This document shows, piece by piece, positions 3,482 to 39,541 of a DNA stretch of 64,000 nt. A program made the translations under genes and the position numbers. The DNA is taken from assembly GCA_022822665.1 (NCBI GenBank), contig JAJEAR010000039.1:62001-126000 (forward strand). Direction: 5' to 3'. How positions within the stretch are numbered: position 1 is the first letter of the stretch; every line of letters starts with the position of its first letter. Source of the stretch: Alphaproteobacteria bacterium. Its GTDB lineage: Bacteria > Pseudomonadota > Alphaproteobacteria > Thalassobaculales > Thalassobaculaceae. The notes under the pieces are model-generated. The model did not search any database and was not told where the DNA came from. It saw only the letters and a list, made by a program, of their open reading frames with translations.

Positions 3482-5074
3482 TCAGATCTCGTCGCTGTAT
3501 GAATAGTCCCGGTCGAGTCTGCGGGCCATGGCGCACGCGTGGGGAGCGCTTTCCGCGATCAGCGCAAGCACGTAGTCGTCGTCCGGCAGCCCGGCGGCCG
3601 CGGCAAGCATCCTTATCTCGTTCAGCCGGTCGCCCTCCGGAGGAAGAACCGGCACGGGCAACGCCACCTTTTCCCGTGCGGGCGGTGGGCCGGCGTGCAG
3701 CACGGGGCGCCTGTTCCGCCATTCCGTTGCGGCTTCGAATGCCTGACCAGCCGCCAGCACCGTCCGGTCCCGGAAAGGCGCCCCCGCTATCTGCACGCCG
3801 AGCGGCAAGCCGCTCCCGGAGAAACCGGCCGTTATCGTCAACGCCGGGCCGCCGGTTACGTCAAAGGGTGTGGTGATGCTTGGATATCGCCAGAAGTTCG
3901 CGGTGTCATGCGCGTCGAGCCGCGGTGCCGGACCTGTCGCCGACGGCGCTATCAGCACATCGAAACGTTCGTGGACCGGTTCCATCGCGCGCCGGAGTTG
4001 CCGCCAGCGGCGGTGCGCGGCGACATAGTCCTGCGCAGTGAAACAGACAGCACCGAGTACACGGGACAGGAAGTCCTGACCGAAATCGCGCGGGCGCGTC
4101 TGCAGGTCGCGCCGGTGGACGTTGAAGAGTTCGCTCTCGGCGATGGTGATCTTGACATCGTACCAGTCCTGCACCGGGGGCATTCGCGCCGTTTCGACGT
4201 TGGCGCCCAAGCGCCGGAATACCTCCGCCATGTGCTCACAGGCCGCAACCATTTCCGGTGCGACCTTCAGATCCTCCTCCCAGTAGTGACGCAGCAGGCC
4301 GACGCGCAGTCCGGCCATCGAGACCGGCGCCGGATGCTGCGGACAGTCGAGTGATCGCGGGTCTTCCGGATCATGGCCGGCGAGAGCGTCAAGCAGCAGG
4401 GCACAGTCCTCCGCTGTCCAGGCGAGCGGCCCGCAATGGTCGAATGTGAAGGAGTTGGGGATGACGCCCCGACGACTGACGAGCCCGTAACTCGGCATCA
4501 GTCCGGCTACGCCCGACAATGCGGCAGGGCCCCGAATGGATCCACCGGTATCGGTGCCGAGCGCACCAAGGCAGAGGCCGGCTGCCACGGCAACGCCGGA
4601 GCCGCTCGACGAACCGCCAGAGAAGTGATCCGTGTTCCAGGGGTTCCTGGCCGGCGGCCAGGGCAGGTCGAAGCTCGGACCACCATGCGCAAATTCATGC
4701 GTCGCGAGCTTGCCCGTGATCACCGCGCCGGCTGCCTTCAGCCGCCGTACGGTTTCGGCATCCCTGTCCGGAACGCGGTCCAGCCGGGTCCTGGATCCCC
4801 CCGCCGTCAGTACACCGGCCGTGTCGTAGATGTCCTTGAGCGCAACCGTGACACCGTGCAGGGGTCCTCGCCGCCGGCCGGCGGCGATCTCGGCGTCTGC
4901 CGCCCTGGCGTCCTCCAGCGCACTCTCGGCCATCACCGTCACGTGGCTGTTCAGGTACGGATCATGGGTCTCGATGCGCGCCAGCGTCGCCTCGACCAGT
5001 TCCACCGACGACAGCTGCCGCGCGGCAAGTGCCCGCGAAGCTTCGGCAAGCGTGAGAGTCGCGAGTTCGATCAT
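3482..5074 (-). CDS. Amidase signature family hydrolase
   Basis: The 530-residue protein shows the amidase signature: catalytic Lys near residue 80 in VALKDIYDTAG, and the Gly/Ser-rich block GGSSSGSGVAV followed by GTDTGGSIRGPAA, which supplies the cis-Ser and nucleophilic Ser of the Ser-cisSer-Lys triad. The length and the extended C-terminal tail suit a stand-alone amidase rather than GatA, since no gatB or gatC is adjacent. Such enzymes hydrolyse carboxamides to acid plus ammonia; the substrate cannot be read from sequence. It is transcribed away from boxC, leaving a 440-bp shared upstream region. A second amidase of the same superfamily begins at 63584. Confidence 0.9.
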   Translation of the reverse strand: MIELATLTLAEASRALAARQLSSVELVEATLARIETHDPYLNSHVTVMAESALEDARAADAEIAAGRRRGPLHGVTVALKDIYDTAGVLTAGGSRTRLDRVPDRDAETVRRLKAAGAVITGKLATHEFAHGGPSFDLPWPPARNPWNTDHFSGGSSSGSGVAVAAGLCLGALGTDTGGSIRGPAALSGVAGLMPSYGLVSRRGVIPNSFTFDHCGPLAWTAEDCALLLDALAGHDPEDPRSLDCPQHPAPVSMAGLRVGLLRHYWEEDLKVAPEMVAACEHMAEVFRRLGANVETARMPPVQDWYDVKITIAESELFNVHRRDLQTRPRDFGQDFLSRVLGAVCFTAQDYVAAHRRWRQLRRAMEPVHERFDVLIAPSATGPAPRLDAHDTANFWRYPSITTPFDVTGGPALTITAGFSGSGLPLGVQIAGAPFRDRTVLAAGQAFEAATEWRNRRPVLHAGPPPAREKVALPVPVLPPEGDRLNEIRMLAAAAGLPDDDYVLALIAESAPHACAMARRLDRDYSYSDEI

Positions 5075-15302: not shown

Positions 15303-15456
15303 GAGCGGGGATTTTGGGCTGATCGGCTCGGATTGAGCGATGGACTGTAGTGTGCGCCCCCCGGCGAGCTTGCAAAAGTTCGTCCGGGGGGCTTTGTCTC
15401 GGTGACGGCTAAACCACCGGACGAGTCCAATGTCGCACACGCTGTGCCGAAGCTCC

Positions 15457-16044
15457 ATGCTTTCGGATCCGCGCGTCTGGTCGTTCCTGACGCAGGTTGA
15501 CGCGGCCGAGGCGGAGACCTGCCGGAAGGCGGGCTGTCCGCGCTGCGGCGGCGTTCTTCACAGTGCCCGGTATCCGCGCAAACCGTACGGTCTTGCGGTC
15601 GCATTACGCGGCGATGTCTGGCGTTTCAGCTTCTGTTGCGCAGCGTGCCGGGGACGTGAGACGCCACCGTCGGTTCGCTTCTTCGGGCGGCGCTTCTATG
15701 TGGGCGCCCTGTTCCTTCTGGTGAGCGCGCTGGCCCTGGGTGGCGGTGTGCGCCTGCAGACGATCGCGCGGCGCTCGGGGATTCCGGTCCGGACGCTGAA
15801 GCGCTGGCGGCGGTGGTGGCAGGAGACGTTCCCGACGACGCCTGAGTGGCGGGTGAAGCGGGGTGCGCTGGCGCCGCCACCCGGGGAAGCGCCCCTGCGC
15901 TGGCTGTTGCGGACCATGCGTGGCCACACCCTGCGCGCCCGTCTGTTGCGCAGCCTGGTGTGGCTGATGCCCTGGACGGGATCGTGCGCTCTCGGCGATG
16001 GGCGGACGATGTCCGCAGAAAGCGTTTCTGTCATGACCGCATAG
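15457..16044 (+). CDS. Transposon-associated zinc-ribbon/helix-turn-helix protein
   Basis: The first gene inside the transposon encodes about 195 residues from the ATG at 15457 (15430 is a possible earlier start). A zinc-ribbon is visible as C-x2-C in GCPRCGG and a second pair in FCCAACRG, followed by a helix-turn-helix-like stretch IARRSGIPVRTLKRWRRWW. It lies 44 bases before the transposase gene on the same strand. Small zinc-binding HTH proteins often help transposases choose targets or bind ends (TniQ/TnsD-like roles), but a specific role here is inference. I do not recognise a named family. Confidence 0.6.
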   Translation: MLSDPRVWSFLTQVDAAEAETCRKAGCPRCGGVLHSARYPRKPYGLAVALRGDVWRFSFCCAACRGRETPPSVRFFGRRFYVGALFLLVSALALGGGVRLQTIARRSGIPVRTLKRWRRWWQETFPTTPEWRVKRGALAPPPGEAPLRWLLRTMRGHTLRARLLRSLVWLMPWTGSCALGDGRTMSAESVSVMTA

Positions 16045-16088
16045 GGCGTTCTACACCGGCCTCCCGGTGACGGAAGGGAGATGCCGGA

Positions 16089-16643
16089 ATGGACAGGGAC
16101 GACCCGGTCGCCAGGCGCGAGAAGTGGGCACGGCTCCGGTTTGCGGTGGTGGGACCGCTGCTGGCGTCGCCGCCGCCGTCAGGCCAGTTGCGGGCTGCGC
16201 TTGAGCGGTTGTCGCATCTGGAGTGGGAGCATCCGTCGGGCGCCGGGCGGGTGCGCTTCTCGGTGTCCACGATCGAGCGCTGGTACTACCAGGCGCGGGC
16301 GGAGGATCGCGATCCGGTCAAGGCGCTGCGTCAGAAGCCGCGGTCCGACATCGGCCGCGAACGGGCGATGTCGCCGGCGCTGATCGAGGCGCTGCGCGAG
16401 CAGTACCGGGCGCATCCGTCGTGGTCGGCGCAGCTGCATTACGACAACCTGCGGGTGCGGGCCGAGGGCGATCCAGCGCTCGGTCCGATGCCCTCCTACG
16501 CGACGCTCACCCGGGCGATGCGGGCGCGCGGCCTGGTGCGCAAGCGCCGCCGCAAGTGGTTCGAGGGCGAGGAGATGCCCGCGGCCGACACCCGCGAGGT
16601 CCTGAGCTACGAGGTCTCGCGCAGTCACGGGCTCTGGCACGCC
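16089..16643 (+). pseudogene. 5' half of the DDE transposase, split by the RIT element
   Basis: These 185 codons start MDRDDPVARREKWARL and carry the N-terminal DNA-binding region, with a HTH-like FSVSTIERWYYQAR. They run to the conserved block before the catalytic core, SYEVSRSHGLWHA. The next codon in the 3' half at 20092 is Asp, in DFHHGKRRVLTSSGEWVTP, which intact relatives have in direct continuation. The open frame runs 39 bases into the RIT end before a stop. Rejoined, the protein would have 489 residues, normal for this transposase type. Confidence 0.88.
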
Positions 16644-16674
16644 TTATGTGGCGGTCGTCGTTATGTGGCGGTGA
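16644..16674 (+). repeat. Left inverted repeat of the RIT element
   Basis: 31 bases identical in reverse complement to 20029-20059, extending to 37 with one mismatch. Each repeat contains two direct copies of TTATGTGGCGG, 17 bases apart. Another copy in reverse orientation (CCGCCACATAA) sits inside the left end at 16715-16725. These look like multiple recombinase arm or core sites. Confidence 0.92.
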
Positions 16675-16782
16675 TCCCGTAGACCCGCAGTAAGAATGGA
16701 ATCACGCCACCTGGCCGCCACATAACCTAGAACACGGATTCCCGTTCAGTGATCGTGCTTTCCCGCTCAAGGAGGCACGCTC

Positions 16783-18036
16783 ATGTTCGAGAAACTGTTC
16801 GAGCGCCCGCACACGATTGAGAAGTACCGGTCGGCAGCGCTCTACGAGGACCGGCTCAGGTATCTGGTCCATGTGGCCGACGGTGGCGCCACACCCGACA
16901 CGCTCTACAAGATTGCCTATCATCAGCTGAACCTGCTTCGTCTCCTCGACCTGCGGGAAGGCGAAACGGTGACGCTGCCCCAGCTCACCACCGTGATCGA
17001 CGCGCGGTTCGATCGCGCGGGGCGTACCGGTGACCAGCGGACCCGGTCGAGGTCGTCAAGCGAGTTCCTTGGATACGCTCTTCGATGGTTGCGTTTTCTG
17101 GGTCGCGTCGAGGAGCCCGCGGTCCCCCGCCACCCCTACGCCGCCGAGATCGAAGCGTTCACCGCCTGGATGCGCACCGAGCGAGGCCTGTCTGAAAAAA
17201 CGATCTACTTCTGTTGTCAGGCGGTTGCCGACTTCCTGAACAGGCTGGCGGGACGGAACGTCCCGCTGGCGGTGGTCGAAATGGCCGATGTCGACGAGTT
17301 CGTTGCCGCGAAGACGGCCAGCGGATCGTGCAAGCGGGCAACGATCAACAACTACGCTCGCTATGTTCGGGCCTTTCTCGCCTTTGGCGAAGATCGGGGC
17401 TTGTGCCGATCCGGCCTGGCCGGAGGCATCATTCCTTCGAGGATCTACAAGGATGAGCCGATCCCGGCAGGAGTGTCACGCGATGACGTCCGGCGCCTGC
17501 TGGCCGACACCGAGGGAGAGCGACCGGGTGACAAGCGGGATCGCGCGATCCTGATGCTCCTCGTCGGATACGGCTTGCGGGCCGGAGAGGTGTGCGACCT
17601 GCATCTGGACGACCTCGACTGGGAACAGGAGACGATACGCGTCCGCCGGAGCAAACCGGGGCGAACCGACGTCTATCCGCTGTCCCGTGGCGTCGGACAG
17701 GCGATCCTGCGCTACCTGGTCGATGTCCGCCCTCAGCGGCCTGAACGCTCCCTGTTCCTGACCCTTCGCGCTCCGAGACGACCGTTACGCACGAGTGCTG
17801 TCTCGGAGATCGTCCGACGGCGGCTGGGTCGTCTCGGTCTCAAGACGAAGCGGCGTGGGGCGCATGGGCTCAGGCACGCCGCCGCCCAGCGTCTCCTCGA
17901 CCATGGCCTGTCGATGAAGGCCGTCGGCGACTACCTCGGGCATCGCCGCATCGCATCCACTTCGGTGTACGCAAAGGTCCATCTCGAGGCCCTGCGAGAA
18001 GTCGTCGCCGACTTCGATCTGGAGGGTCTGGCATGA
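16783..18036 (+). CDS. RIT element tyrosine recombinase A
   Basis: The 417-residue protein has a SAM-like N-terminal DNA-binding domain (about 120-230) and a catalytic domain with GLRAGEV (Arg I), HGLRHAAAQRLL (HxxR), GHRRI and the nucleophilic Tyr in TSVYAKVH near the C-terminus. It would cut and rejoin DNA through a 3'-phosphotyrosine bond. It is the first of three recombinases read as one unit: its TGA overlaps the ATG of the next gene by four bases. A good AAGGAGG site precedes the ATG. All active-site residues are present. Confidence 0.93.
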   Translation: MFEKLFERPHTIEKYRSAALYEDRLRYLVHVADGGATPDTLYKIAYHQLNLLRLLDLREGETVTLPQLTTVIDARFDRAGRTGDQRTRSRSSSEFLGYALRWLRFLGRVEEPAVPRHPYAAEIEAFTAWMRTERGLSEKTIYFCCQAVADFLNRLAGRNVPLAVVEMADVDEFVAAKTASGSCKRATINNYARYVRAFLAFGEDRGLCRSGLAGGIIPSRIYKDEPIPAGVSRDDVRRLLADTEGERPGDKRDRAILMLLVGYGLRAGEVCDLHLDDLDWEQETIRVRRSKPGRTDVYPLSRGVGQAILRYLVDVRPQRPERSLFLTLRAPRRPLRTSAVSEIVRRRLGRLGLKTKRRGAHGLRHAAAQRLLDHGLSMKAVGDYLGHRRIASTSVYAKVHLEALREVVADFDLEGLA

Positions 18037-18980
18037 CAAGCCTGCGGGAAGCGATCGACGGCTACGTCGCATGGCAGCGCAGTCATGGCGCGACGTTCGT
18101 CTCCGGCGCCTACCTCCTGAACAGCTTCTGCAGGAGCTTCGACCAGGACACCGAGTGCGACGCGGTCACCGAGGCCCAGGTGAGGGTATTCCTCGCCGGC
18201 ACCGGACCGCTGACCCGTTCCCGTTCGACCCGCTACGGCGCCCTCGCGGGGTTCTACCGCTACGCGATCAGCCGACGATATGCGTCGCGCTCGCCGTTGC
18301 CGGACAACGAACCGCCGCGGCCCCGGTCGCCGCCGTCCTACATCTATTCCCGTGACGAGGTGAAGCGGATCTTCGGCGTCGTCGATGAATGCCGGCGCGA
18401 TGCGCGCAAGCTCGACGCCGATACCTTTCGCACGCTCATCCTGCTTCTGTACGGAACCGGACTGCGCCGCGGGGAGGCGTGCCGCCTGACTGTGGAGGAT
18501 GTCGACCTGGCCGAGGCCGTGCTGACGATCCGCGACACCAAGTTCTACAAGAGCCGGCTTGTGCCGGTCGGCCCGCGGCTTGCCGATGTGCTGCGAACCT
18601 ACGCGTCACGCCGTGCCGAACGCCCGATGAAGGCAGGCATCACCTCAACTTTCCTGGCAAATCGGGATGGATCGCCGGTCAACGGGTCGTCGGTGCATCG
18701 AGCCTTTAGCGAACTGCTTCGAGCGGCGGACATCCATGCCAGGAACGACGGACGCGGGGCGCCCTGCGTGCATTCGCTGCGCCATTCATTCGCCGTTCAC
18801 CGGCTGACCTCATGGTACCGGCTGGGTGCCGATGTGCAGCGGCTGCTGCCGGTCCTCGCCACCTTTCTCGGGCATCGCGACCTGAATGGCACCCAGGTCT
18901 ATCTGTCGATGACCCCCGAGCTGCTGCACGAAGCCTCGCTGCGCTTCGAACACTACGTCCATGGAGAAACCGATGAATGA
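18033..18980 (+). CDS. RIT element tyrosine recombinase B
   Basis: 315 residues, middle gene of the trio. Catalytic residues are visible in GTGLRRGEACRL (Arg), HSLRHSFAVHRL (HxxR), LGHRDLNGTQVYLSM (His and Tyr). The N-terminal region resembles a core-binding domain, with RSRSTRYGALAGFYRYAI. Translation is probably coupled at both ends: ATGA overlap with gene A, and a 20-base overlap with gene C. In RIT elements the three recombinases are distinct subfamilies that keep the same order, which implies that all three are needed. Confidence 0.92.
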   Translation: MTSLREAIDGYVAWQRSHGATFVSGAYLLNSFCRSFDQDTECDAVTEAQVRVFLAGTGPLTRSRSTRYGALAGFYRYAISRRYASRSPLPDNEPPRPRSPPSYIYSRDEVKRIFGVVDECRRDARKLDADTFRTLILLLYGTGLRRGEACRLTVEDVDLAEAVLTIRDTKFYKSRLVPVGPRLADVLRTYASRRAERPMKAGITSTFLANRDGSPVNGSSVHRAFSELLRAADIHARNDGRGAPCVHSLRHSFAVHRLTSWYRLGADVQRLLPVLATFLGHRDLNGTQVYLSMTPELLHEASLRFEHYVHGETDE

Positions 18981-19968
18981 TGTCGACACACTGGGCCCCT
19001 GGCTTCGCCGCTTCCTCACCGAACACATAGTCAGCGAGCGCAATCTGGCGATCAACACACGCAAGAGCTACCGCGACACCTTCTCGCTCCTGCTACCCTT
19101 CGTCAGCGCCGGGGTCCGCAAGCCGGCGGACCGGGTGGTCGTGTCCGATCTCACGTCCACGCGGATCCTGCAGTTCCTCGCCCATCTCGAGGAAAGCAGG
19201 GGATGCTCCGTGCAAACCCGAAACCAGCGCCTGGCGGCACTCCGCTCGTTCGCCAGCTTCGTGGGCAGCCGTGAGCCGACGCTGGTGGAATGGTGCGGCA
19301 CCCTTCGTGCCATCCCGTTGAAGAAGGCGGCGACGAAACCGATCGGTTGGCTGACCAAACCCGAAATCCATGAGATCCTCGCGGTCCCCGATCGCGCGAC
19401 ACTGCAAGGCCGGACCGAATACGCCCTGTTACTATTCTTGTACAACTCGGGCGCGCGAGTGTCGGAAGCCACGCAGTTGCGGATGGCAGACATGCAGATC
19501 GGCCGCACGGACGGCGGCCATGCGCTCGTTACCCTGAACGGCAAGGGCGGAAAGATCCGTCAGTGCCCGCTGTGGCCACGCACCGAACGCGTCCTCGCCG
19601 AACTGGCAAGGGGGCGGACAGGCGGCGATGCGGTGTTCCTCAGCCGGTACCGCAAACCCTACACCCGGTTCGGCGTGTACCATCTGGTGGCGCGCAGCGC
19701 GGCCGGCGTGCCGTCTCTGGAAGGCCGCAAGATCACGCCCCACGTGATTCGGCATTCCACGGCCTGTCATCTGCTTCAGGCCGGTGTCGACATCAACACC
19801 ATTCGCGCCTGGCTCGGCCATGTCAGCCTCGAAACCACAAACATCTACGCCGAAATCGATCTGGAAATGAAAGCCAGGGCGCTGGCGATCTGCGACGCGG
19901 CGGAGGCTGGCCCGCACCGCCCGTGGAAGGAGGACAACGGACTCATGGCCTTCCTCAAGGCACTGTGA
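18961..19968 (+). CDS. RIT element tyrosine recombinase C
   Basis: 335 residues, third gene of the trio. It is XerC/D-like in style, with an N-terminal SAM-like region (TRNQRLAALRSFASFV) and catalytic motifs NSGARVSEATQL, HVIRHSTACHLL, GHVSLETTNIYAEID. All expected residues (R, HxxR, H, Y) are intact. It overlaps gene B by 20 bases, and about 60 bases remain between its stop and the right inverted repeat. Confidence 0.93.
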   Translation: MEKPMNDVDTLGPWLRRFLTEHIVSERNLAINTRKSYRDTFSLLLPFVSAGVRKPADRVVVSDLTSTRILQFLAHLEESRGCSVQTRNQRLAALRSFASFVGSREPTLVEWCGTLRAIPLKKAATKPIGWLTKPEIHEILAVPDRATLQGRTEYALLLFLYNSGARVSEATQLRMADMQIGRTDGGHALVTLNGKGGKIRQCPLWPRTERVLAELARGRTGGDAVFLSRYRKPYTRFGVYHLVARSAAGVPSLEGRKITPHVIRHSTACHLLQAGVDINTIRAWLGHVSLETTNIYAEIDLEMKARALAICDAAEAGPHRPWKEDNGLMAFLKAL

Positions 19969-20028
19969 CGTTCCAGATTATGTTGTGGTCATGTGGTGGG
20001 ATCCCTTGTTAACAACGGGATCACGGGT

Positions 20029-20059
20029 TCACCGCCACATAACGACGACCGCCACATAA
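20029..20059 (-). repeat. Right inverted repeat of the RIT element
   Basis: Reverse complement of 16644-16674 over 31 bases. A degenerate TTATGTTGTGG-like copy lies just inside at about 19978-19988, so both ends seem to carry an array of related sites. Confidence 0.92.
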
Positions 20060-20091
20060 GGCGTGAGATGTTATGTAGAACATCTCACGCC
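20060..20091. repeat. Perfect 13-bp-arm hairpin at the right RIT junction
   Basis: GGCGTGAGATGTT, a 6-base loop ATGTAG, then AACATCTCACGCC. The inner 26 bases are absent from the reconstructed transposase. The first six bases GGCGTG are the reverse complement of the CACGCC found on the left flank and at the hairpin end. It may be an attachment-site relic or sequence brought from a previous site. Confidence 0.8.
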
Positions 20092-21006
20092 GATTTTCAT
20101 CATGGCAAGCGCCGGGTGCTGACATCGTCGGGCGAATGGGTGACGCCGATCCTTCTGGGGTTCCTCGACGATACCACCCGGCTCGGCTGTCACCTGCAGT
20201 GGTATCTCGCCGAGACCGCGGAGGTCTTCGTCCACGGGCTGTCCCAGGCCTTCATGAAGCGCGGCCTGCCGCGCGCCCTGATGAGCGACAACGGCTCGGC
20301 GATGACGGCGGGCGAGGTGGAGGAGGGACTGCACCGGCTCGGCATCGTCCACTCCCGGACCCGGCCGGCTCATCCCCATCAGAACGGCAAGATGGAGGTC
20401 TTGTGGGCCTCGGTCGAGGGTCGGCTGATGGCGATGCTCGACGGCGTCGAGCCGCTGACCCTCAAGATGCTCAACGACACCACCATCGCCTGGCTCGAAC
20501 AGGACTATCACCGCCGGGTGCACCGGGAACTCGGCACCACGCCGCACGCACGACTGGCCGAGAGCGCCGACGCATCCAGGCCGTGTCCCGGCTCCGACGA
20601 GCTCAAGGCGGCGTTCCGGATCACCAGAAAGCGGACGCTGAGGCGCTCGGACGGAACCGTCTCGGTCGAGGGCATCCGCTACCAGGTGCCGCGGCCATGG
20701 CGCCACCTCGCCACGCCCCGGGTCCGGTACGCGCGCTGGGACCCGGCCAGCATCGATCTCGTCGACGGGCAGACCGGCGAGCGGCTGTGCGCCCTCTACC
20801 CCGTCGACAAGCGCGGCAACGCCGATAGCGCGCGCCGTCCCACGGCTGTCGACACCGCAGATGGCAGCGGCGACGGCAGTGGTGAAGACGGCCTGCCGCC
20901 GCTGCTGCGGACCATGCTCGACGCCCAGGCCGCGACCGGCCTGCCGCCGGCCTGGCTGCCACACACATCCACTCCCGACACCGACGATCAGGACGAGAAC
21001 TCATGA
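20092..21006 (+). pseudogene. 3' half of the DDE transposase (catalytic domain)
   Basis: 304 codons begin with the first catalytic Asp (DFHHGKRRVLT). They include the second Asp in MSDNGSAMT and the Glu in HPHQNGKMEVLWASVEG, so a full DDE triad of the rve/integrase fold is present, followed by a C-terminal beta-rich domain (GTVSVEGIRYQVPRPW). Upstream open frame from 19993 belongs to the RIT end and is not the true start. The stop overlaps the ATG of the ATPase gene (ATGA). Without its 5' half the protein lacks the end-binding domain. Confidence 0.88.
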
Positions 21007-21836
21007 ACCGAGAGCTGCTCACCTTCTACGGGCTAAAGTGGAACCCGTTCGCCCCCGACCTGCCGGTCGACAGCCTGATGGCGACCGCCGCCGTCGACAG
21101 CTTCTGCCTCAGGATCGAACGCCATCTCGTGCGCCACGGCGGCTTCGCGCTGATCGCCGGCGAGCCCGGAACCGGAAAGAGCGTCGCACTGCGTCTGCTC
21201 GCCCACCGGCTCGGACGCTGCGACGGGCTCAGGGTCGCCGCCATCACCCACCCGTCCTCGAGACTGTCCGACTTCTACCGCGAGATCGGCGAGTTGTTCG
21301 GCGTCGACCTGATGTACAACAACCGCTGGGCCAGCTTCAAAAACCTGCGCCGGCGCTGGCTCGCCCACCTCGACGACACCCGCATGCGCCCGGTGCTGCT
21401 CATCGACGAGGCCCAGGAACTGCTGCCCTCGGTGTTCTCCGAGATCCGCCTGCTGGCGTCGACCGACTTCGACTCGCGCGCCATCCTCTCGGTGATCTTC
21501 GCCGGTGACAACCGCCTGCTCGACCGCCTCCGCCAGCCCGACCTGCAGCCCATCGCCTCGCGCATCCGACAGCGCCTGCTGATGACCCGGGCCGAGGACG
21601 GTGAACTGACCGGCCTGCTCGACCATCTGCTCGAAGAGGCCGGCAATCCGGCGCTGATGACCGCCGGGCTCAGGGACACCCTCGTCGCCCATGCCGCGGG
21701 CAATCCCAGGGCGCTTACCGTCATGGCCGATGCCGTGCTCGCAGCCGGCGCCGAGAAGGACCGCGAGGTGCTCGACGAGAAGCTCTTCATCGAGACCCTC
21801 GGCGAGGCACCATCATCCAGGCGGGCCCGGCGATGA
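21003..21836 (+). CDS. Transposition ATPase (ExeA/TniB-like AAA protein)
   Basis: The 277-residue protein starts MNRELLTFYGLKWNPFAPDL, the N-terminus typical of ExeA-like transposon ATPases. It has Walker A GEPGTGKSVALRLLA (about 54-68), Walker B VLLIDEAQELLP (about 131-142) and a C-terminal arginine-rich lid region. MuB, TnsC and TniB are functional analogues: they bind DNA in an ATP-dependent way, choose targets and activate the DDE transposase. The gene overlaps the transposase by four bases and the next gene by four bases, so the three are co-translated. Confidence 0.88.
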   Translation: MNRELLTFYGLKWNPFAPDLPVDSLMATAAVDSFCLRIERHLVRHGGFALIAGEPGTGKSVALRLLAHRLGRCDGLRVAAITHPSSRLSDFYREIGELFGVDLMYNNRWASFKNLRRRWLAHLDDTRMRPVLLIDEAQELLPSVFSEIRLLASTDFDSRAILSVIFAGDNRLLDRLRQPDLQPIASRIRQRLLMTRAEDGELTGLLDHLLEEAGNPALMTAGLRDTLVAHAAGNPRALTVMADAVLAAGAEKDREVLDEKLFIETLGEAPSSRRARR

Positions 21837-22855
21837 CCGGCTTCCCGACACGGGCTCCGGCCGAGCTCGAGGACCGACCGAGGGAGCGACAGTGGATGGT
21901 CGAGGCGCTGTGGAGCGAGCAGGGCGTGGGCATCATCGGCGGCGAGCCCAAGTGTGGCAAATCCTTCCTCGCGCTCGACCTCGCCGTCTCGGTGGCCGCA
22001 GGGGTGCCGTGCCTGCGCCACTTCCCCACCGCCACAAGCGGCACCGTGCTGCTGTTCGCCGCCGTGGACGCCGGCCACATCGTGCGCGACCGCCTCCAGG
22101 GCATCGCACGTGCCGCCGGGGCCGCGTTCGAGGCCCTCGACATCGCCGTCATCGATATCCCGGTTTTGCGCCTCGACCACCGCACCGATCGCCAGCGCCT
22201 CGGCGAGACCGTGCAGCGCATCGCGCCTCGCCTCGTCGTCCTCGACCCCCTGGTGCGCCTGCACAGCGTCGACGAGAACGCCGTCGCCGAAGTTGCCCCC
22301 ATCCTCGGCTTCCTGCGAGACCTGCAGCGCCGCTTCGAGACCGCCGTGATACTCGTCCACCATGCCAGAAAGAGCGGCGCCACGCGACCGGGCCAGGCGC
22401 TCAGAGGATCGTCCGAACTGCACGCCTGGGGGGACAGCAATCTGTACCTGCGTCGCCGCGAGCGCCAGATCCTCATGACCGTCGAGCATCGCGCCGCTCC
22501 CGGCCTCAACGATATACAGATCGAACTCGCCGACGACGCAGACGGCCCGGCGCTGCGTCTCCGCCACGCGGAAGCCGCCCAGGATGCGCCCCGGCCCGAC
22601 ACACCGGAACAGCGCATCCTCCAGGCCCTCGCCAAGGCCAATGCCCCGCTCTCCCAGCGCCAGATCCGCGAGCGCGCCGCGACCCGGCCGAAGACCGTCG
22701 CCGAGGCGCTGGGCACGCTCGTGCGCGAAAACCGCGTCGAGCGTGCCTCTGAAGGCGGATACCGCCTCGCCGCCGGCCCGACAGAGACCGACGACGTCAA
22801 CGACAGAAGCCCCGGGTACCCGTTACCGAAAACCGTTACCGCCCCCAACCCCTAG
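21833..22855 (+). CDS. RecA-fold AAA_25/RepA-like ATPase carried by the transposon
   Basis: 340 residues. Walker A is GGEPKCGKSFLALDLA (about 35-50), Walker B is LVVLDPLVRLHSVDE, and a sensor-like VILVHHARK is followed by ALRGSSELHAWGDSNLYLRR. This resembles RepA-type hexameric helicases and the AAA_25 family used in plasmid and phage replication. A winged-helix-like C-terminus (LSQRQIRERAATRPKTVAEAL) follows. Its place as last gene of a transposon operon suggests a replication or target-handling role, which is inference; classic Tn7 or Tn5053 sets do not include such a protein. Confidence 0.8.
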   Translation: MTGFPTRAPAELEDRPRERQWMVEALWSEQGVGIIGGEPKCGKSFLALDLAVSVAAGVPCLRHFPTATSGTVLLFAAVDAGHIVRDRLQGIARAAGAAFEALDIAVIDIPVLRLDHRTDRQRLGETVQRIAPRLVVLDPLVRLHSVDENAVAEVAPILGFLRDLQRRFETAVILVHHARKSGATRPGQALRGSSELHAWGDSNLYLRRRERQILMTVEHRAAPGLNDIQIELADDADGPALRLRHAEAAQDAPRPDTPEQRILQALAKANAPLSQRQIRERAATRPKTVAEALGTLVRENRVERASEGGYRLAAGPTETDDVNDRSPGYPLPKTVTAPNP

Positions 22856-38360: not shown

Positions 38361-39047
38361 ATGGCCCCTGCAAGCGGTAAAGCGCGCCGGCGCAGGAAGC
38401 GGGCGATGAAACTCGCTGAAATCGACAGCTTCTTCGCGCGACTGGCCGAACAGCGGCCCGAGCCCCGGGGCGAGCTCGACTCGGTCAACACCTACACATT
38501 GCTGGTCGCGGTAGTGCTGTCCGCCCAGGCCACGGATGTCGGGGTCAACCGGGCCACCCGGGAACTGTTCCGCGAGGTCACGACACCGGAAGCGATGGTA
38601 GCGCTCGGCGAGGAGAGACTGAAGGATCACATCCGCACCATCGGGCTCTTCAACGCCAAGGCCAAGAACGTGATCGCGCTGTCCGAAGCGCTGATCGAAC
38701 ACCATTCCGGCCAGGTTCCCAACAACCGCGAGGCGCTGGAAGCCCTCCCCGGGGTCGGACGCAAGACCGCCAACGTGGTCATGAACATCGCCTTCGGCGA
38801 GCCGGTCATCGCCGTGGATACCCACATCTTCCGGGTTGCCAACCGCACCGGGCTTGCCGCCGGCACCACTCCGCTTGCGGTGGAACGCGGACTGGACAAG
38901 CGCGTGCCGGACCGATGGAAGCTCCATGCGCATCACTGGCTGATCCTGCACGGGCGGTACCTGTGCAAGGCGCGGAAGCCCTCGTGCCCGTCCTGCCCCG
39001 TGCACGACCTGTGTCAGTTTACCGACAAGTCGCCGGCGGTGGACTGA
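38361..39047 (+). CDS. nth: Endonuclease III (DNA glycosylase/AP lyase)
   Basis: 228 residues from ATG 38361; a basic N-terminal stretch precedes MKLAEIDSFF, so an internal start at 38406 is also possible. Helix-hairpin-helix LEALPGVGRKTANVV with the catalytic Lys, AVDTHIFRVANR with the catalytic Asp, and the iron-sulfur ligands C-x6-C-x2-C-x5-C in CKARKPSCPSCPVHDLC. It excises oxidised pyrimidines and nicks abasic sites. The 3' end overlaps the convergent lipoprotein gene by 34 bases. Confidence 0.96.
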   Translation: MAPASGKARRRRKRAMKLAEIDSFFARLAEQRPEPRGELDSVNTYTLLVAVVLSAQATDVGVNRATRELFREVTTPEAMVALGEERLKDHIRTIGLFNAKAKNVIALSEALIEHHSGQVPNNREALEALPGVGRKTANVVMNIAFGEPVIAVDTHIFRVANRTGLAAGTTPLAVERGLDKRVPDRWKLHAHHWLILHGRYLCKARKPSCPSCPVHDLCQFTDKSPAVD

Positions 39048-39541
39048 TCCGGCGGGGTCCCGGCAGCGGCCTGGCGCACCAGATCCGACAGGCACCGGTT
39101 CCTGGCGCCGCGGTTCGGGAGCGGCTCGAGCGATGGCTGCAAGTACATGGCATGGGTCGCACGGACCTGTTCCTGTTCCCGGATGTGGAACAGGAACAGG
39201 TTCAGGATGCAGTACTCTGTGCGGTATCGCCACAGTTGCGCCAGAGCGTCATTGCGCACGAACTGCGGATTGCCGAGGACCTGCCTGATCTCCTCCCCGG
39301 TCCGCTCCAGCGGCCAGCGCGGGCCGAGCGTCAGGGTCACGACGGGAGAGGGCGCGGCTGTCGGGGAAACCGGTGCCAGTTCGTCCGAACCCGCGTTGAG
39401 CGCCGCCTGCTGCTGTTCGACCGCCGGCTCCGCGAGGGTCACGAAGCCGAGTTCCGGATCGAACCGGCATGCCGAGAGGCCCCCGACCATCAGGGCGATG
39501 GCCACCGCCCGGAACAGGTTTCCGGCCGGCGCCGTTTCCAT
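39014..39541 (-). CDS. Small lipoprotein of unknown function
   Basis: 175 residues. The N-terminus has a hydrophobic stretch ending in the lipobox VGGLSAC, so Cys 25 is probably lipidated. The mature part has WPLERTGEEIRQVLGNPQFV and LAQLWRYRTEYCILNLFLF, reminiscent of the BamE/SmpA-like fold (a helix pair followed by strands, with G(N)P as the turn). It may be an outer-membrane assembly factor relative, but this is uncertain. It converges on and overlaps nth. Confidence 0.65.
   Translation of the reverse strand: METAPAGNLFRAVAIALMVGGLSACRFDPELGFVTLAEPAVEQQQAALNAGSDELAPVSPTAAPSPVVTLTLGPRWPLERTGEEIRQVLGNPQFVRNDALAQLWRYRTEYCILNLFLFHIREQEQVRATHAMYLQPSLEPLPNRGARNRCLSDLVRQAAAGTPPDQSTAGDLSVN

Follow-up and report, generated by a model that had tools for sequence, protein, structure and literature searches.

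The 64,000-nucleotide stretch of alphaproteobacterial DNA analysed here (the window) contains a recombinase-in-trio (RIT) element of 3416 bp at positions 16644-20059. RIT elements consist of three overlapping tyrosine-recombinase genes in approximately 3.4 kb bounded by terminal inverted repeats, and they are often found in transposase genes, including those of Tn6049 relatives (PMC3414803, PMC2864759); the RITs of Acidithiobacillus occupy the transposase gene of one such relative (PMC3414803). The window element has the gene trio, length, terminal repeats and transposase-gene target in common with these published elements (Table 1). Its ritA, ritB and ritC genes are adjacent and overlapping, terminal repeats are present, and all three products carry the catalytic residues of tyrosine recombinases. 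In RitC, R166, H261, R264, H287 and Y296 are unchanged in an alignment across eight homologues, and the R-H-R-H-Y motifs of RitA and RitB were found by direct reading of the translations. In addition to the exact terminal repeats, a longer pair of 96-bp arms at the element ends is 80% complementary. The RIT interrupts the gene of a Tn6049-like transposase of IS481 type, with the split falling after ...GLWHA and before DFHHG..., and the joined halves are 57% identical (tblastn) to Tn6049-type IS481 transposases of Cupriavidus. A Tn6049-like module comprising an HTH gene, the transposase, a TniB-like AAA ATPase and an AAA_25 ATPase surrounds the RIT at 15430-22855. The same genome also contains a second, truncated RIT remnant (contig C75, approximately 3588-4200; L014), with a RitC whose second half is 77% identical and a right end reading CCGCAACATAC, with no hairpin on that side.

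Table 1. Features of the RIT element and its insertion site, in window coordinates.
Feature	Position	Strand	Basis or remark
Transposase gene, 5' part, to ...GLWHA	16089..16643	+	ORF; joined-protein tblastn
6-bp spacer CACGCC at the hairpin-free end	16638..16643	+	Probably the target's own, by the spacer rule
Left terminal inverted repeat: two TTATGTGGCGG units separated by 6 bp	16644..16671	+	28/28 match to right end
ritA, tyrosine recombinase, 417 aa	16783..18036	+	PF00589
ritB, tyrosine recombinase, 315 aa	18033..18980	+	PF00589; ATGA overlap with ritA
ritC, tyrosine recombinase, 335 aa	18961..19968	+	PF00589; overlaps ritB
Right terminal inverted repeat	20032..20059	+	28/28 match to left end
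Hairpin, probable twin attachment module S1-core-N6-core'-S2	20060..20091	.	
Spacer S1 GGCGTG, inner, probably unused in the present insertion	20060..20065	+	
Conserved centre AGATGTT ATGTAG AACATCT, putatively two inverted overlapping half-sites	20066..20085	.	Core recurs in L033, L035, L054
Spacer S2 CACGCC, outer; inferred site of the present insertion	20086..20091	+	
Transposase gene, 3' part, DFHHGKRRVL...	20092..21006	+	

The right inverted repeat is directly abutted by a perfect hairpin, GGCGTGAGATGTT-ATGTAG-AACATCTCACGCC, with fully complementary 13-bp arms and a 6-nt loop; no hairpin lies beside the left repeat. CACGCC stands immediately left of the RIT and recurs as the last six bases of the hairpin; GGCGTG, the reverse complement of this six-mer, adjoins the right repeat. 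The original prediction had described this hairpin, its restriction to the right side and the mirror-image placement of CACGCC at both repeats, and all of these were reproduced at the same positions. The hairpin pattern occurs once in its own genome. When the window was simulated with an order-1 model (n=60) and searched for perfect hairpins with arms of at least 13 bp and loops of 3-10, an equally strong hairpin arose in 1 of the 60 simulated windows, and the real window contains one stronger perfect hairpin elsewhere. Chance was ruled out for the RIT hairpin because it is conserved and recurs at other RIT ends. The stronger hairpin, ACCTGTTCCTGTTCC-CGGATGT-GGAACAGGAACAGGT (15-bp arms and a 7-base loop, 39165-39201), lies within a predicted coding region, the minus-strand ORF 39014-39541.

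The comparison suggested in the original prediction, of junctions of related RITs for a one-sided hairpin, was carried out on RIT copies identified through their RitC in genomes, plasmids and viral contigs. A hairpin module was present on exactly one side in 39 copies (23 left, 16 right), with hosts in the alpha- and gammaproteobacteria, Acidobacteriota and Gemmatimonadota as well as in viral contigs. The module follows a fixed plan, S1(6)-core(7)-N6-inverted core'(7)-S2(6), placed against a terminal repeat. Our first scan demanded ATGT in the core, and later scans without that demand gave the same picture. In the sole same-genus genome, an RIT whose RitC is 73% identical carries the hairpin GCCCAG-AGATGTT-GCGTGC-AACATCT-CTGGGC on its left, with GCCCAG repeated at the far end. 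This hairpin and that of the window have the core AGATGTT-N6-AACATCT in common and differ in the outer six bases. The same core was found at other targets in L033, L035 and L054, and the module of the distant RITs L135 and L139 is similar and diverged. Besides the 39, three copies are hairpin-free (L017, L034 and L075) and one is two-sided (L107). L107 is flanked by one target half in inverted arrangement and L075 likewise by the other half; these two look like opposite insertions merged in assembly, a reading that covers L075 and L107 and not L017 and L034.

A strong stem-loop downstream of ritC, as in the window, might be taken for a transcription terminator or expression element of the rit operon. 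Across the copies, however, it is found equally often upstream of ritA, it has no T-run, and its arms track the target spacers, and we consider a role of this kind extremely improbable.

The direct six-base repeat CACGCC flanking the RIT and hairpin together would also be seen if the hairpin had already been present in the target gene, or had entered as a separate small insertion beside the RIT. Four uninterrupted transposase homologues, found on plasmids and in two distant genomes, have a single six-mer and no hairpin; they read CTCTGG-CACCTG-GACTTC in two cases and CATCTC or CATCTT at the six-mer in the others, compared with CTCTGG-CACGCC-GATTTT at the window junction. In 60 relatives, the sole match to an intact window-type transposase was the split window copy itself. 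The intact yhdJ gene of Escherichia coli, a RIT target in other strains discussed below, reads CTC-GACCCG-TTTGCCGG (GTTCTC-GACCCG-TTTGCC) without a hairpin, and the hairpin is likewise absent from uninterrupted plasmid methyltransferase genes. Searches with joined patterns in the genomes of L066, L042 and L039 returned no uninterrupted target copies. Hairpins in empty sites had been named in the original prediction as the observation that would speak against it, and none was seen in yhdJ, the plasmid methyltransferases or the Tn6049 transposases. Because empty sites lack the hairpin and the same core is found at RITs in unrelated genes, the hairpin is, as judged from these junctions, element DNA and not target DNA; an origin in the target or in a separate insertion is scarcely credible.

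The orientation of the module was most informative in E. coli WP4-S18-ESBL-07, which carries four RITs with no differences over 3904 bp, each at GACCCG in a DNA-methyltransferase gene: yhdJ on the chromosome and three genes on plasmids. The presence of the same RIT at four separate sites of a single strain suggests that this element moved recently. The hairpin precedes ritA in two of them and follows the right end in the other two. In 4/4 copies it lies on the same target side, and in 4/4 its asymmetric core, TTATGTG-AAACTC-AACATAA, has one orientation relative to the rit genes. The same pattern was found in E. coli strain 550 (L027/L028), in L039/L040, and in L042 compared with L043/L044. Insertion in one direction followed by inversion of the body between the terminal repeats would leave the hairpin at one target side, as is constantly observed, and the terminal repeats are long and inverted. 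Such an in-place inversion would nevertheless reverse the core relative to the genes, and the core is unreversed between left and right copies in L022/L024 versus L025/L026, L027 versus L028, L039/L040 and L042/L043. In-place inversion is therefore excluded for E. coli, L039/L040 and L042/L043; we rejected it as a candidate and regard it as very unlikely in general. The one exception is the pair L069 (479-4258) and L070 (3404-7183), which are 99% identical and in which the 20-bp centre is turned around with respect to the rit genes, a flip seen in no other copy. This flipped core could fit body inversion.

Our preferred interpretation, which we hold to be likely, is that the RIT itself carries the hairpin as a twin attachment module. 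Excision as a circle would connect the ends in the order IRR-S1-core-N6-core'-S2-IRL. On either side, a core site for tyrosine recombinases (inverted core, 6-bp spacer, core) would then be made up of one terminal repeat, six spacer bases and the half-site of the hairpin that faces the repeat, with one or more Rit proteins predicted to bind the ATGT-containing cores. The two sites would be inverted and share the 20-bp hairpin centre, and hence be alternatives: exchange between S1 and the target would place the hairpin on the ritA side (left), and exchange between S2 and the target on the ritC side (right). The hairpin half-sites are six bases apart and probably compete, such that one event would use one spacer and leave the whole module on that side. 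Use of either S1 or S2 would thus yield a hairpin on one side only. The six bases of the target would come to lie beside the terminal repeat, and those of the circle beyond the hairpin, on its outer side. S1 and S2 would then serve as records of former targets, complementary when both last exchanged at the same conserved motif. The model takes the conserved module, its one-sidedness, the use of both sides, its orientation, the empty sites and the spacer changes directly from the sequences. The circle, recombinase binding, strand order and spacer pick-up are deduced.

A circle joint of the form IRR-S1-hairpin-S2-IRL, usable at either spacer, predicts all of the E. coli observations. The L069/L070 flip counts against the model, which does not predict it without an extra inversion, as do the three hairpin-free copies and the two-sided L107, and one pattern scan of viral contigs revealed no circle, tandem or IR-hairpin-IR junction. 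Among the explanations offered in the original prediction, a second recombination site is the best fit, with the hairpin apparently made up of inverted half-sites that would each complete a core-6bp-core arrangement with a terminal repeat. We somewhat favour the broader view that two inverted, overlapping tyrosine-recombinase sites with one palindromic centre, which would allow a circle to enter an asymmetric target either way and give each site its own 6-bp record of its last target, represent an undescribed kind of attachment site.

Each copy has three six-mers, one outer (beyond the hairpin), one inner (between hairpin and repeat) and one at the flank of the hairpin-free end, which are often equal, though not always. 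L028 is the most decisive case for the probable direction of exchange: its identical sister L027 has CAGGTC as S2, and L028, apparently inserted into yhdJ through S2, carries this CAGGTC beyond its hairpin, with the native CGGGTC of yhdJ at the flank. Codon reading likewise places the motif-compatible six-mer at the flank in L063 (IS66-type CWAH motif) and L020 (toprim-type FTD motif). L023 could go either way and was excluded because its host gene is a mosaic of two alleles. These few decisive cases suggest that the target's 6 bp go to the terminal repeat and the circle's to the outer side of the hairpin.

The arms themselves are usually complementary, with 130/150 S1-S2 matches across 25 families compared with 53 +/- 7 after shuffling. 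Complementarity at this level, and the perfect pairing of the window arms, would be expected of a folded single-stranded hairpin (cruciform or integron-type), in which the recombinases recognise paired 13-bp arms including the spacers and fold-back repair generates S2 as a copy of S1. In integrons, attC consists of inverted recombinase-binding sites that form a stem-loop, and the folded single-stranded substrate has extrahelical bases. The RIT hairpin resembles attC in its inverted sites arranged as a stem-loop. Unlike in attC, arm pairing appears dispensable: L042, L043, L044, L066, L108 and L131 have intact cores with arm matches at only 2-4 of 6 positions, and neither extrahelical bases nor attC-type boxes are present. 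Copying of S2 from S1 was downgraded as well, as S1 alone differs between L066 (CACCAT) and L067 (CACCGC), in which the elements are identical and the targets near-identical, and S2 did not change along with it. The folded integron-like site raised in the original prediction is accordingly unlikely.

The L066/L067 difference, together with L043/L044, where GGAGGG and GGGAGG are swapped between outer and flank positions, would follow from spacers being acquired at one target and taken along to the next, and the 6-bp arms behave as exchangeable spacers that would record earlier targets. Since several intact-core copies are unpaired and S1 can change alone, pairing seems not to be required; it apparently arises when one conserved coding motif is targeted repeatedly and in either orientation. 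Conservation of the six-base spacer follows from the targets being codons of conserved motifs. In the window, the outer, inner and flank six-mers all correspond to CACGCC, which makes it probable that S1 and S2 were each last used at one and the same motif. The idea of a coupling sequence brought from a former site, also part of the original prediction, holds for these exchangeable arms and fails for the 20-bp centre, as this is conserved and belongs to the element.

In Tn916-type conjugative transposons, 6-bp non-homologous spacers (coupling sequences) move from site to site. RITs resemble them in the carried 6-bp spacers, but Tn916-type elements use a single recombinase with Xis, are conjugative and have no hairpin module. 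A possible parallel in spacer behaviour is provided by the strand-biased circularizing integrative elements (SE) and Tn554, in which the circle's 6-bp spacer goes to one end and the target's to the other (PMC10214605). The direction matches the one suggested by L028, L063 and L020, with L023 ambiguous. SE movement requires IntA, Tfp, IntB and Srap and uses one attachment site of defined polarity, with no twin hairpin described (PMC10214605). The window element does not have the SE/Tn554 recombinase set (IntA-Tfp-IntB-Srap or TnpA-B-C); its only genes are those of three tyrosine recombinases, each with a complete catalytic motif.

RIT ends have been described as a 28-9 bp inverted repeat plus an 'overlapping palindromic sequence flanking ritA and ritC', features that fit the usual recombinase sites poorly (PMC3414803). 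RIT elements and these vaguely defined overlapping palindromes were thus already known, and no account of a twin attachment site turned up in the literature searched. The one-sided hairpin, two spacers, two-way insertion and exact exchange are unreported in the RIT literature searched, although Ricker et al. 2013 (Plasmid) may say more. RITs are widespread, their mobility is called undemonstrated and their movement untested in the literature searched, and target specificity and movement are both listed as untested in PMC10214605. A twin site would give exact RIT ends, exact target positions and a predicted circle joint, and thereby a testable route of movement. It would also correct end annotation, with the hairpin and one six-mer belonging to the RIT, and turn the apparent six-base duplication into a spacer of the target plus an imported one. 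The sequence of hops in a genome may become readable from the spacers, and the twin site may help to explain the need for three recombinases.

In mobile-element genes, the codons targeted by RITs (L021-L029, L033, L063, L066, L102 and others) repeatedly belonged to conserved motifs, with IS66 CWAH, IS481-type transposases, methyltransferase DPF and toprim motifs recurring. L018/L019, L061, L016 and L020 are RITs of 5.6-8.8 kb that contain additional DNA or have greatly extended terminal inverted repeats, the repeat arms of L018/L019 reaching 1133 bp. These larger elements lie in toprim-domain genes at the conserved GK(F/W)TD motif and are mostly plasmid-borne.
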